From assembly GCA_021793275.1 (NCBI GenBank), contig JAJYTC010000017.1:1-43283 (forward strand): a DNA stretch of 43,283 bases. The letters are read 5' to 3'. Positions 1-9,263 of the stretch are shown here, piece after piece (position 1 is the stretch's first letter; each line of letters starts with the position of its first letter). Below the pieces are notes generated by a model. It did no database searches. It saw only the letters and a program-made list of their open reading frames with translations, and had not been told where the DNA came from. The stretch is from Deltaproteobacteria bacterium (GTDB lineage: Bacteria > Desulfobacterota > Syntrophobacteria > Syntrophobacterales > Syntrophobacteraceae). A program made the translations under genes and the position numbers.

Positions 1-2143
1 GCATGCGGCTGAAGAATTCCCTCGTTTCCGCAAAATTATGAAATACGACGCTAAGTGATACAAACTCCCTGTTATGCCTATCCAGGCCGCCGGTTACTTG
101 CAGTATCAGGACATCATCCGGCATGCTCGACAGCACGCCGAGCAGGTCGCGAATGCTGCTGTCTAAAATCTGAATATGGAGCACCAGGGGGTGGCGCCAA
201 GGAACGGCGAGATCCCAGTTGACCAGGAGCATTTGCTGCATCAGAAGGGAGTGTCTTTCATGAAGGTCGCGGCAGTCCCGGTGGTGAAAAGTCACCCCCC
301 TTTCACTAAGGGTTGCGAGAACATGGTCCTGACCGGGCAAAGGATTGCAGCAGCGCGCAAATTTGAAGACTGCCTTGTCCAGACCTGAGACTGTAAGAGT
401 GTTTCGACCCTGCCCTTCCGCGCTTTCCTGTTTCCTGGCCTCATCGGCCCTATGACTTTCCAGATAATAGAGCACAGCCTGAGGAGAAACAAGATCCTGA
501 CCTATCTTCAGGTATAATTCCTGGAGGTCTTTTACGTTTAAAACCTCGAGGATCAGCCGCATGCTTTCTCCCTCCAGCACAGAGGCGGAGAACTTATGTC
601 GCGCTATCTCCTGGAGCAGAATGTCCATGCCCGCCTGCCGGGCGAACATCAGCCGTTTTTGATGCAGCCGTCTGTTGATGGCGGTGCGTGCCTTAGGGGT
701 TTTGCACAGCGCCTCCAGTTCGGTATCCACATCCATCTGTTCCGAAGACGTGAGGATTTCAACCGTATCGCCGTCTTTCAACTGCCCCGTGATCGGCGTC
801 CATGCGCCGTTGACCAGGGCGCCCTCGCAACTGTCGCCAATCTCGGAGTGGATGCGATAAGCGAAATCGAGCACTATGCTGGATTTGGGAAGGTAGTAAA
901 TGTCTCCCGCCGGGCTGTAAGTATAGATTTCTTCGGATTCCGAAAGCCGAATCAGGTCTTTTCGATGCGTTGCGGCGCCCTCGTATTCGCCAATATAGCG
1001 CAGCAACTCGCTTATCTCCTGCCAGTGCTCGTTTGAAAGCCCCTCCTGGGACTCCCAGGCCCTCAGGGCGCCTCCACCGGCCAAATTCTCCATCTCCAGG
1101 TTCCGGATCTTGATCAGATAATTGTTTCCGCTCAAATGGACCCTGGTGTGCAGGCTCCGGTATCCATTAGCCTTCGGGTTGGCTATAAAATCGCGAAGAC
1201 TCTTGGGAATCGCTACAAGGTTGTTGTTCACCAACCCGAGCACTTTGTAGCAATCGGTTATCTCATCGCTGTGAAGGACAACGGCGAAGTCAACGAAATT
1301 CTCCGGGAAAGCCGGGTCGAGGCTCCGTTTGAGGGGGTTGTAATAGCTGCCCAGCCCCTTGGCGCGCGAGCGGATATCGGCTGGGACGCCGCAATCGGAA
1401 AGGATTTTCGAAAGGGATGCCTCGAGGCTGGCAACGGCCGGCGAGTTGCGCAACTCCTGCATCAAGTGCAGGATTTTCTTGCTTTTTTTTGGATAAAGAA
1501 AGGTGAGCGCGTGGTGGTAGAGTTCTCTTTTGAGCGGGTAGAGGTTGAGGCGAGCCGCGATCGGGGCGTAGACGTCGACCGTCTCCTGGGCGATGCGCTG
1601 CCGCTTGGTCAAAGGCAGATAATGGAGCGTCCTCAGGTTATGGAGCCGGTCGGCCAGCTTTATGAGGAGCACCCCGAGTCTTCGGCTTGCGCTGATAAAG
1701 ATCTTGCTGTGCGTCAGGTCCTTTAACGAAGCCCTGTCCAGATGGAACCTGGCCAGTTTCGTGCAACCGTCCACCAGTTCGGAGACCCCGGCGCCAAAGC
1801 GCGCTTCAATGTCTTCGACCGCCATCCATGGAACGTCCTCGACGACGTCGTGCAGCAGGGCGCCGGCAAGAAGCACCGGGTCTTTGAAGCGCATCTCCCG
1901 GACCATGATTTCGGCCACAGCACAAGGGTGACTTATGTAAGGCGCCCCTGATTTTCTGCGCTGCCCCTCATGCAATTCGGACGCAAAATCGAGAGCTTTG
2001 AAAAAAAGGGCATTACCGTCCCCCGATGGACCAAGGCTTTTTTCCATCCGCTCACGGAACTCGGCGAGATTGAAAAAATGCGTCTGCTCGGCTGTCACCG
2101 GAAATACTGGACCCGAATTTTCGCAAAGTTCGATCTCAGCCAT
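1..2143 (-). CDS. RelA/SpoT-family protein, hydrolase site intact, synthetase site degraded (3' end cut by window edge)
   Basis: My translation of the minus strand from ATG at 2143 stays open for 714 residues to the window edge. Domains in order are: HD hydrolase (about 45-200), synthetase-like domain (about 255-360), TGS (about 405-466), helical region, zinc-finger/CC region with an ARCCNPLPG motif (about 585-640) and a start of ACT (650 onward). All hydrolase landmarks are present: H72, H98-D99, E102-D103, D165 and N169 in LADRLHN. The synthetase keeps the RxKxxxS stretch (260-266) and the NPKANGYRSLHT motif. The family DxxAxR motif instead reads VDFAVVL, and the catalytic Glu of EVQIRT is Leu343 (LIKIRN). 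I infer a ppGpp hydrolase with little or no synthesis, in the cytoplasm. The family assignment is sure; the activity is inferred. Confidence 0.93.
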   Translation of the reverse strand, partial: MAEIELCENSGPVFPVTAEQTHFFNLAEFRERMEKSLGPSGDGNALFFKALDFASELHEGQRRKSGAPYISHPCAVAEIMVREMRFKDPVLLAGALLHDVVEDVPWMAVEDIEARFGAGVSELVDGCTKLARFHLDRASLKDLTHSKIFISASRRLGVLLIKLADRLHNLRTLHYLPLTKRQRIAQETVDVYAPIAARLNLYPLKRELYHHALTFLYPKKSKKILHLMQELRNSPAVASLEASLSKILSDCGVPADIRSRAKGLGSYYNPLKRSLDPAFPENFVDFAVVLHSDEITDCYKVLGLVNNNLVAIPKSLRDFIANPKANGYRSLHTRVHLSGNNYLIKIRNLEMENLAGGGALRAWESQEGLSNEHWQEISELLRYIGEYEGAATHRKDLIRLSESEEIYTYSPAGDIYYLPKSSIVLDFAYRIHSEIGDSCEGALVNGAWTPITGQLKDGDTVEILTSSEQMDVDTELEALCKTPKARTAINRRLHQKRLMFARQAGMDILLQEIARHKFSASVLEGESMRLILEVLNVKDLQELYLKIGQDLVSPQAVLYYLESHRADEARKQESAEGQGRNTLTVSGLDKAVFKFARCCNPLPGQDHVLATLSERGVTFHHRDCRDLHERHSLLMQQMLLVNWDLAVPWRHPLVLHIQILDSSIRDLLGVLSSMPDDVLILQVTGGLDRHNREFVSLSVVFHNFAETREFFSRM

Positions 2144-5733: not shown

Positions 5734-6222
5734 TTACAGGTCGCTATTTGAGATTACCTCCTTCGCCATATCCTCAATGAAGGAACGATACCTCCGCGCA
5801 ACGGCGGGATCGAGAAGAGACAGGATGCGGACGGCAAAGACAGCCGCATTGTAGGCGCCGCCTTTTCCAATGGACATGGTGGCAACGGGAACGCCCGGAG
5901 GCATCTGCACGGTTGACAGAAGCGAATCCATTCCTTTGAGCGGGGAAGAATCGATCGGCACCCCGATAACAGGCAGGGTGGTCCGGGCAGCGGATACGCC
6001 CGCCAGGTGGGCGGCCCAGCCTGCCCCGGCTATAAGCACCTTGACCCCGCGCTCCTCGAGCTCCATCACGTATTCGGCGGTTTGGTCGGGGGTCCTGTGG
6101 GCCGAGAGGATTTTCATCTCATAAGGTATTTCGAACTGGTCCAGAAGCCGGCCCGCACTTTCCATCACGGCGACATCCGACTTACTGCCCATTATGATTC
6201 CAACCAGAGGATTTTGCATCAT
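5734..6222 (-). CDS. purE: N5-carboxyaminoimidazole ribonucleotide mutase
   Basis: Class I PurE converts N5-CAIR to CAIR in purine synthesis. The 162-residue protein has the signature GSKSD near the N-terminus, SAHRTPD (about 40-46), AGAGWAAHL and the GVPIDSSPL to MPPGVPVATM loop, ending in GAYNAAVFAVRIL. The start lies in an ATGATG overlapping the purL stop, a 4-base ATGA overlap, so translation is very probably coupled to purL. The frame is open further upstream, but that part lies in purL and is not PurE-like. GAGWAA replaces the more common GAGGAA, a conservative change. No purK is visible in the window. Confidence 0.96.
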   Translation of the reverse strand: MMQNPLVGIIMGSKSDVAVMESAGRLLDQFEIPYEMKILSAHRTPDQTAEYVMELEERGVKVLIAGAGWAAHLAGVSAARTTLPVIGVPIDSSPLKGMDSLLSTVQMPPGVPVATMSIGKGGAYNAAVFAVRILSLLDPAVARRYRSFIEDMAKEVISNSDL

Positions 6223-9200
6223 AGCGCTCCCATCCATGCCCTGCGCAGTGAAAAAATATTCTCTCTTACGATTTCCCTGCCGGACCTGCCCGTAATGACA
6301 AGTTCGGGATTTTCCGTCACCTCGCCCACCAGTCCGAAGGGCAGCCCGACAAAGATTTTCTCGAACTCCCCGGCGCATTCTTTCGGGACCGTGACGAGAA
6401 ACCGCCCGCAGGATTCGCTGAAAAGGCGCCGGTCCTCGCACAGAGCCTGGTCCAGGACCGGGACTTTGGACAGATCGATTGTCAATCCGAGACGGCCGCC
6501 GATGGCGACCATGGCCGCATGGACCCCGAGCCCGCCTCTGTATATACCGTGACAGGAAGCGACAATGCCTGAAGATACTACTGTTTCCACGGCGCGGTAG
6601 AGGTCGAGGAGAGATTCGCATTTCCTCTTATCAAGCGCCTTCGGGTCGGCAAAGCCGGCTACCTTCGGGACATTGACTCCTGTGTAGCCGAAAAGGTCGT
6701 AATAGGCCGAGCCTCCGAGTTCGTCCGCCGTGTAGCCAAGCATATATACCAGGTCGCCTCGATACTTGGCCTCAAGGGTCTGCGATTTTAACACATCGGA
6801 AACTATCCCCGTCGCCGTAAACAGCATTGTTGGAAGACCGCTCACTTTGTGCCGTTCGCCGAAACCGCCCGGAAGAGACCCGTCCACATACATGCTGTCT
6901 TTTCCCGAAAGGAGCGGTATGGACCATGCCAGGCACAGATCTCGAAGCGCAAGATTGGCGCGGACCAGTTGCGCGGCCTTGTAACGCCCGTCCGGGTTTT
7001 GAACCGGGTCGTACTGAATGTTGGGCCAGCAGAAATTATCGACGCCCCCGATTTCGTCCAGCCTGCCCCCGACCGCCAGGATGCGCCTTACCGCCTCATC
7101 GATCACCGCTGCAACCATATGGTAGGTATCGATCTCGGAGTAGGAGGGTAGAAGGGCCTGCGCCACTGCAAGCCCCGTGTTCGCATCGAGGACGGGCCGG
7201 ATGACTGCGGCATCGTTTGGAATGTCCCGGTCCCTGCCGGCCATGAACTTTACCGCACTGCCTCCCTGCACCTCATGGTCGTATTGTCTCTGGATCCATT
7301 CCCGGCTGCACAGGTTGGGGGTGGAAAGAAGCGCATTCAAAAGCGGCCCGTAATTTTCAGGTTCGCCGAGCGGCGGTTCGCTAAGGCCTCGAGCTTCGGG
7401 AGCAAGCCATTGGGCATCGAACTCCCACTGCGGAAAATCTTCGGAAAAAAGGCTCAGGTCCAGGAGCGCACAGGTCCTGCCCCCGTAATCCAGGCGCAAC
7501 TTCCCCGTATTTTCATACCTGCCGATTACCGTGCTCTCGACATCATGTTTTCGCGAAAACTCCATGAACCGGTCCAGGTTTTCGGGTTTGACCGCGACGG
7601 TCATCCGCTCCTGGGATTCCGATACCCATATTTCCCACACATCGAGGCCTTCATACTTGAGAGGCACTCTGTCCAGTTCTACATGCGCGCCGCCGGCCAT
7701 CGCCGCCGATTCGCCTATTGAGGAAGAAAGCCCCCCGCCGCCGTTGTCGGTAATGAAGGTAATAAGGTCTTCGTCACGAGCATCGAGAAGGAAATCGTGC
7801 ATCTTCTTTTGAGTATACGGATCGCCGATCTGGACATGCCCGGCGGGGGTGCCCGCCCCGTAGCTCTCACTCGAAGCGGTGACCCCGTGGATGCCGTCTT
7901 TTCCCACGCGTCCCCCGCTCATTATGATCAGGTCGCCTTGCTCGGGGCATTTTAGCTCCGAGGGCTTTCCCCCGATTTCTTTGGGCATGATTCCGAGCGC
8001 TGCCACGAACACCAGGCACTTGCCCAGATAGGAGGGATGGAAAAACAGGTTTCCAAAGGGCGTAGGCACTCCGTGCTTATTGCCGCCGTCCTTCACTCCT
8101 TCAACGATCCCGTCGAGCAACCGCCTGGGGTGAAGGTGCGGCTTCAGCGGTCCGCTATAGTCGCGAGGCCCGACACAATAGCCGTAAAGGCCGGCTATAA
8201 GGCGCGATCCCTTTCCGACGCCCATTATATCGCGATAAATCCCGACAATCCCGGTCAGAGCGCCTCCATAAGCCTCCATGTTGGACGGGCTGTTATGGGT
8301 TTCGCCGGTAACCGAGTAGTTGAAGCGTGAATCGAACCGGGCAACGCCGGCGTTGTCCCAAAGAACGGAGACCACCCAGTCCTTGCGGTCCCGGACCTCC
8401 AGTGTAGGGACTTGGATGCAGGTCTTGAAAAGATTGTCCACTGAGAATCGTTCGCCCGTAAGCAGATCGACATAGCGGAATTTGCCACGGAAGGTATTAT
8501 GGTTGCAGTGGTCGCTTCGAGCCTGGGAAATCGCTTCCAGTTCCACGTCGGTAGGAGCGATTAGACCAAACTTTGCACGCTCTTCGAGCACCTGCGGCCT
8601 CAGAAAATAATTCCTGATGATCGGGATGTCGTTGCGGTTTAGCGCCAGGTTTCTCTCGTCGCTAAGCCTTGCAAGCTGCTCGTCGCTTTCAAGCGCGATT
8701 TCACAGATCGAGGGCTTGTGGGCAAGAAACACCTTGGGGGCAACAATGTCGGCTCCCCCGCCCTCGATCCAGTCGGCGCACGTATAGACCTTCCACTGCT
8801 GGATGATTTCGTTTGCAAGAAGCTCACGAGCTATCGTTTCGGCCTGAGTTCTCGAAAGCGGGGCATCTTTCAGGAGGTAGAGCCGCGAAGTGTAGGCGGC
8901 ATCTTCCACAGACGGCGCTTTTCCCAGCAAATCCCTTATAGCCTCGATCGCCACACTTCCCGCAGTATCGCGGACCCCCGGTCGATATCCCACCCAGATC
9001 GCCCAGTCAAAACCCGTAAGCTCCTCGAGTGTCTCCCCACCCCCCTTTGCAAAAGCAGATACCTGCGTCACGGGATTGGTGAAAATCCCGGCGCGCGCCG
9101 CTTCGAGTTCTTGGTCCGAGAGGCCGGTATCCAGAGTCAGCATGTTTATTACACGCGCTTCTCCTATCTCCCAGCCAAAGTAGTCGCGAACCCTCCTGCA

Positions 9201-9263
9201 AAGCCCAGCCCCATCCGGATCGAAAAGGTGGGGTTTTAGAGCCGTTTCCAGTCTCTTTGTCAT
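6219..9263 (-). CDS. purL: Phosphoribosylformylglycinamidine synthase, PurS-PurL fusion without glutaminase domain
   Basis: Makes FGAM from FGAR, ATP and glutamine in purine synthesis. At 1014 residues it lies between small PurL (about 730) and the large PurL of enterobacteria (about 1300). The first 190 or so residues resemble PurS (two alpha/beta units, around VINMLTLDTGLSDQE and YLLKDAPLS). They are followed by the linker with SDHCNHNTF and the two AIR-synthetase-like halves (NSPSNMEAYGGA, GGRVGKDGIHG, then LLSGKDSM). There is no C-terminal Cys-His-Glu amidotransferase, so a separate PurQ is expected elsewhere. The start ATG at 9263 has GGAGG 5 bases upstream. It overlaps purE by 4 bases. 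Confidence 0.95.
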   Translation of the reverse strand: MTKRLETALKPHLFDPDGAGLCRRVRDYFGWEIGEARVINMLTLDTGLSDQELEAARAGIFTNPVTQVSAFAKGGGETLEELTGFDWAIWVGYRPGVRDTAGSVAIEAIRDLLGKAPSVEDAAYTSRLYLLKDAPLSRTQAETIARELLANEIIQQWKVYTCADWIEGGGADIVAPKVFLAHKPSICEIALESDEQLARLSDERNLALNRNDIPIIRNYFLRPQVLEERAKFGLIAPTDVELEAISQARSDHCNHNTFRGKFRYVDLLTGERFSVDNLFKTCIQVPTLEVRDRKDWVVSVLWDNAGVARFDSRFNYSVTGETHNSPSNMEAYGGALTGIVGIYRDIMGVGKGSRLIAGLYGYCVGPRDYSGPLKPHLHPRRLLDGIVEGVKDGGNKHGVPTPFGNLFFHPSYLGKCLVFVAALGIMPKEIGGKPSELKCPEQGDLIIMSGGRVGKDGIHGVTASSESYGAGTPAGHVQIGDPYTQKKMHDFLLDARDEDLITFITDNGGGGLSSSIGESAAMAGGAHVELDRVPLKYEGLDVWEIWVSESQERMTVAVKPENLDRFMEFSRKHDVESTVIGRYENTGKLRLDYGGRTCALLDLSLFSEDFPQWEFDAQWLAPEARGLSEPPLGEPENYGPLLNALLSTPNLCSREWIQRQYDHEVQGGSAVKFMAGRDRDIPNDAAVIRPVLDANTGLAVAQALLPSYSEIDTYHMVAAVIDEAVRRILAVGGRLDEIGGVDNFCWPNIQYDPVQNPDGRYKAAQLVRANLALRDLCLAWSIPLLSGKDSMYVDGSLPGGFGERHKVSGLPTMLFTATGIVSDVLKSQTLEAKYRGDLVYMLGYTADELGGSAYYDLFGYTGVNVPKVAGFADPKALDKRKCESLLDLYRAVETVVSSGIVASCHGIYRGGLGVHAAMVAIGGRLGLTIDLSKVPVLDQALCEDRRLFSESCGRFLVTVPKECAGEFEKIFVGLPFGLVGEVTENPELVITGRSGREIVRENIFSLRRAWMGAL

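Follow-up and report, generated by a model that had tools for sequence, protein, structure and literature searches.

A long RelA/SpoT homologue of Desulfobacterota with an intact hydrolase and a lost synthetase site probably serves as the hydrolytic half of a split stringent-response pair

The closest described system is the SpoT protein of Acinetobacter baumannii, for which it has been proven biochemically that it is a hydrolase-only enzyme with a regulatory pseudo-synthetase domain (PMC9974481). In this protein the guanine-stacking tyrosine is lost (Y to N304) and GDP is not bound (PMC9974481). A second point of reference is RshD, the divergent second copy of Syntrophobacter fumaroxidans and Desulfotalea psychrophila, which has been labelled [HS] (Atkinson et al. 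2011, PMC3153485); according to its own authors, RshD groups second copies of doubtful kinship (PMC3153485). Here we analysed a stretch of 43,283 nucleotides of a Deltaproteobacteria bacterium (Syntrophobacteraceae type, Desulfobacterota, metagenome-assembled; assembly GCA_021793275.1, contig JAJYTC010000017.1), hereafter the window, which starts with a gene for a long RelA/SpoT homologue (RSH). With a probability of about 0.88, its sequence and that of its relatives argue that this gene encodes the hydrolase-only half of a split stringent-response pair.

The gene is an ORF of 714 amino-acids that runs on the minus strand from position 2143 to position 2, where it is truncated by the contig start. 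The end of another contig of the assembly, C240, carries a 138-base match to the last 46 amino-acids of the ORF (98%), followed by 22 more residues and a stop codon. As this overlap supplies the C-terminal end, the ORF represents residues 1-714 of a full protein of ~736 residues. From the N-terminus, and all on the minus strand, the protein comprises the HD hydrolase domain (residues 45-200, positions 1544-2011; Pfam HD_4, 3e-32), a domain with the synthetase fold, hereafter the pseudo-synthetase domain (residues 251-350, positions 1094-1393; defined by alignment, dN/dS and the AlphaFold2 fold), core or linker helices (residues 351-402, positions 938-1093; from the AlphaFold2 model, with boundaries set by analogy with A. 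baumannii SpoT), the TGS domain (residues 403-466, positions 746-937; Pfam 6.3e-17, and a match to 3hvz with a Z score of 10.4), the helical (HEL) region (residues 467-588, positions 380-745; AlphaFold2, and Pfam RelA_AH_RIS at 5e-5, which is at the cut-off), the zinc-finger (CC) domain (positions 209-379) and the RRM/ACT domain (residues 646-714, positions 2-208; AlphaFold2). This is the layout of the long RSH superfamily, with the RRM recognized by fold only. The Pfam matches were HD_4, RelA_SpoT, TGS and the marginal RelA_AH_RIS; the Pfam ACT domain gave no match. The initial annotation had described the TGS, zinc-finger and ACT regions as kept: this stands for the TGS domain, found by Pfam, and for the zinc finger, whose residues C598, C599, H620 and C624 are invariant among the relatives of the protein, but the ACT end is known as a predicted fold only.

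To locate the active-site residues, we built alignments of the window protein with SpoT and RelA of E. coli and with dozens of relatives, and numbered the residues as in RelSeq. All eight hydrolase residues tested are intact: R44 (R63 in the window protein), H53 (H72), H77 (H98), D78 (D99), E81 (E102), D82 (D103), D144 (D165) and N148 (N169). Four of them, H98, D99, E102 and D103, form the HDVVED motif (positions 1835-1852, minus strand), and the RKSG guanine-contact motif of the HD domain is as in Rel. The synthetase site is lost: E323 is replaced by L343, Q325 by K345, K251 by P270, R295 by S315 and K297 by R317, and R269 is lost. L343-I-K345 thus takes the place of the catalytic E-x-Q of the EVQIRT motif (positions 1109-1117, minus strand). 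Which residue matches the aspartate of the DxxAxR motif, D264, varies between alignments (V284 or N282), and D285 lies one residue off; hence all five residues checked for a bifunctional Rel[HS] (D264, E323, Q325, K251 and R295) are replaced. These alignments bear out the initial annotation on the complete HD site and on both substitutions of the E-x-Q motif; its reading of DxxAxR as VDFAVVL picked the right string, in a register that is slightly uncertain. In canonical Rel, R241, K243, K304, N306, Y308, H312 and R327 contact the guanine nucleotide and its phosphates. All seven are kept in the window protein as R260, K262, K324, N326, Y328, H332 and R347, as is S247.

The same pattern was found in the relatives of the window protein: the hydrolase site is intact in 48/48, the catalytic glutamate is replaced by leucine in 48/48 and the glutamine by lysine in 48/48, a fixation which indicates that the change in the synthetase is not due to chance. 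One could still imagine a synthetase working through a shifted site, with D285 and other residues standing in and supporting weak synthesis like that of bifunctional SpoT; most GTP-side residues are indeed kept, and D285 is nearly invariant in the window-type (H) family. However, the catalytic glutamate and glutamine are gone from every one of the 48 relatives, K251, R295 and R269 are lost as well, and the more distant H2 sequences carry E or T in place of D285. We therefore consider residual synthesis very unlikely, and the reading of the initial annotation, a hydrolase-only long RSH, is favoured by the intact HD site, by the synthetase losses and by the mirror-image partner described below.

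The initial annotation had predicted that the genome should encode another (p)ppGpp synthase and had proposed a search for it. This search retrieved exactly one other RelA_SpoT-domain protein, on contig C65, which has a complete synthetase site and in which three hydrolase residues are changed (R44 to I, D82 to K and N148 to G). Judged from these residues, the C65 protein is the mirror image of the window protein: it can only make the alarmone, its hydrolysis being lost. Its RelA_SpoT Pfam score is 140.5 bits, against a weak 45.8 bits for the window protein. An intact HD domain, the loss of the synthetase residues and the presence of another synthase in the genome together give the sequence profile of an [Hs] enzyme. 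In the mechanism that we propose, the C65 protein, a sister Rel, would make the alarmone without hydrolysing it, and the window protein would degrade (p)ppGpp via its Mn-dependent HD domain without synthesizing any, its hydrolase balancing the C65 synthetase. As the same genome also encodes a protein of the small alarmone hydrolase type, short and HD-only (L269:1435-2016, plus strand, on contig C263; HD_4, 65.5 bits), the window protein is not the sole candidate hydrolase.

We then compared Rel proteins from genomes with and without such a second copy, defining the Rel hydrolase site as broken when at least one of the eight hydrolase residues is changed. Rel is broken in 32/32 genomes with a window-type copy, and in one of 55 rows without it. 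The single case, G272, does not count as an exception to this coupling, since it has a hydrolase-only RSH of its own: a second copy of 496 amino-acids with an intact HD domain and a dead synthetase. Among genomes with a low-scoring Rel, four more have a full-length hydrolase-only RSH (L292-L295; glutamate to arginine and His312 to glutamate in the synthetase), each beside a broken Rel, which brings the count to 37/37 with a hydrolase-only second copy versus 0/64 without. A profile search with this second family yielded six more genomes, for which a broken Rel hydrolase was predicted before inspection and found in 6/6; in these genomes the Rel synthetase site is intact, and the second copy has an intact HD domain and has lost the glutamate. 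In total across the phylum, the Rel hydrolase is broken in 43/43 genomes with a hydrolase-only long RSH versus 0/64 without, a count that comes from related genomes and is not a p-value. On a Rel tree computed with the HD columns left out, the well-supported (starred) branches force three changes and the best tree five, all in the same direction. With 3-5 pairs, independent-pairs statistics cannot reach 0.05. The weakest partner cases have a single hydrolase residue changed (N148D in L051, D82E in L326), and residual hydrolysis is thus possible in these few partners. In two fragmented metagenome-assembled genomes (MAGs), G025 and G248, the Rel hydrolase site is broken but a hydrolase-only copy was not found; their congeners carry one, and both were set aside from the count.

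One further candidate for a Rel with a broken HD domain, L271 (on contig C261 of G089), was rejected: its gene appears to be frameshifted immediately downstream of the HD domain, which is intact in the other frame. This frameshift may be an assembly error or a real split. The second hydrolase-only family (L292-L295, L262 and L333-L338) comes from other families of the phylum; some of its members are ~485-500 amino-acids long and end after the TGS domain, and others have an altered zinc finger, with FCxxC replacing CC.

The 31-33% identity of the window-type family to canonical Rel, together with the presence of 7smg, a related HD protein acting on (p)ppApp, among the fold matches of the window model, could mean that the HD domain has changed its substrate to (p)ppApp or another nucleotide, in which case there would be no simple pair making and breaking ppGpp. 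The RKSG motif and all catalytic residues are nonetheless as in Rel, and, with hydrolase residues missing from all partners, a ppGpp hydrolase is to be expected elsewhere; we regard such a change of substrate as improbable.

Searches of kin genomes recovered the window-type protein across the whole order, as well as in certain families further away. Among the matches listed, most of which were canonical Rel, the nearest named relative is that of Syntrophobacteraceae MAG_BA69 (89% identity; phylum Thermodesulfobacteriota in NCBI, Desulfobacterota in GTDB) and a distant one that of Desulfamplus (39%); in the Desulfamplus MAG (G293) the window-type protein is present and Rel was not found. Within the genus, the window gene has a dN/dS ratio of 0.047 in the HD domain and of 0.119 in the pseudo-synthetase. 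The ratio lies at 0.05-0.10 in the core, TGS, helical and zinc-finger parts and at 0.294 in the RRM end. The fast evolution of the RRM end, and Pfam scores below those of the partner for several domains, are what one would expect of a decaying duplicate heading to loss and devoid of a cellular role. Yet full-length window-type ORFs are found in dozens of genomes, dN/dS stays at 0.05-0.12 in the HD, pseudo-synthetase, core, TGS and zinc-finger parts, and Rel has lost hydrolase residues wherever a hydrolase-only copy is present, so that decay is hardly credible. Rather, the value of 0.119 indicates that the dead domain is constrained and does not drift freely.

The AlphaFold2 model of the window protein (pLDDT 82) spans all regions. 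The structural comparison to RelSeq proposed in the initial annotation was run on this model: its N-terminal catalytic half matches RelSeq, S. aureus Rel and A. baumannii SpoT (PDB 7qpr) with Z scores of 25-29. The predicted ATP-binding helix spans residues 265-275 in the partner model versus 264-267 in the window model, both predictions resting on family alignments of 28-37 sequences. Purifying selection and the kept guanine-pocket residues make a regulatory role of the pseudo-synthetase likely. We propose that the pseudo-synthetase, core, TGS, zinc-finger and RRM parts are retained as a regulatory scaffold, in which the pseudo-synthetase would sense a guanine nucleotide or keep the hydrolase in its active conformation, as is the case for Acinetobacter SpoT. 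Since the window family keeps the stacking tyrosine and most of its neighbours, its dead domain may be able to sense a nucleotide.

In a quick maximum-likelihood tree, the window-type clade (SH-aLRT 100) sits on a long branch, with E. coli SpoT, RelA and all Rel on the opposite side. The window protein thus seems to form a clade of its own and not to descend from Moraxellaceae or gammaproteobacterial SpoT, although this tree is without any Moraxellaceae SpoT and its long branches make the deep placement unsure. The window-type (H) and second (H3) families are joined, apart from all others, at 98 SH-aLRT; both are long branches, compatible with one origin or two. The synthetase-only partners look like vertical Rel proteins that have lost hydrolysis, because they are placed among Desulfobacterota Rel, adjoining single-copy Rel proteins of the same class that are intact.

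No clue to function came from the gene neighbourhood: in Syntrophobacterales a gene for an HtrA-like protease lies close by, and the other families have another gene set. At six Syntrophobacterales loci (L033:803-1169, plus strand, on contig C240 of the same genome as the window; L076; L299; L300; L301; L304), a conserved protein of ~106 amino-acids without Pfam match is encoded between the hydrolase-only RSH, which lies on the other strand, and the HtrA/DegP-like gene, named by eye from its sequence. Elsewhere in the window, positions 6219-9263 (minus strand) encode a PurL-like protein of 1014 amino-acids, which scores 416 bits with NCBIfam PurL against a cut-off of 526 and has ~230 additional N-terminal residues ahead of the PurL match.

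Beyond the individual pair, we tentatively suggest, as a broader picture that is possible rather than probable, that Desulfobacterota repeatedly evolved a complete RelA/SpoT-like division of labour of their own, in which at least two hydrolase-only families, degraded in different ways, are each tied, so far without exception, to the loss of Rel hydrolysis, and that the dead synthetase of the window family is a guanine-nucleotide sensor controlling the hydrolase. A literature search, with subscription papers mostly outside its reach, found no report that these proteins have lost synthesis or that Rel shows the matching loss. Hydrolase-only long RSHs were already known from Moraxellaceae; what would be new is the loss of the synthetase in Desulfobacterota and the matching change in Rel. 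In the literature found, Moraxellaceae were the only case of a complete split of long-RSH functions, which would now extend to many families of another phylum, where well-supported branches show at least three complementary changes of the partner. The subfunctionalisation of stringent factors would thereby become comparable across independent cases, and the kept guanine pocket provides a testable proposal for the function of the pseudo-synthetase domain.

With respect to the known systems, the window protein shares domain order and fold with bifunctional Rel[HS], from which it differs by the loss of the synthetase catalytic residues. Like Moraxellaceae SpoT[Hs], it is a long RSH with an intact HD domain, a dead pseudo-synthetase, regulatory domains and a synthetase-only paralogue alongside; the comparison with this protein made in the initial annotation is therefore apt as an analogy, but does not seem to extend to descent, as the window family and E. 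coli SpoT lie in separate clades. The window family further differs from A. baumannii SpoT in keeping Tyr328, Lys324, His332 and Arg260. RelA[hS] and SpoT of beta- and gamma-proteobacteria likewise share out the work, one long RSH being synthetase-only and the other hydrolysing. However, the Desulfobacterota partner groups with Desulfobacterota Rel and keeps the RxKD motif (GRYKD) where E. coli RelA has ExDD, and the hydrolase half is, by sequence, fully monofunctional, unlike in the RelA[hS]/SpoT pair. A window-type orthologue (L018, 60% identical) is carried by genome G015, which may be that of S. fumaroxidans. Whereas RshD was labelled as having both activities, no window-type member examined has retained the synthetase site; at least the Syntrophobacter/Desulfotalea branch of RshD appears to be [Hs], and re-annotation of this part of a group labelled bifunctional since 2011 is suggested.
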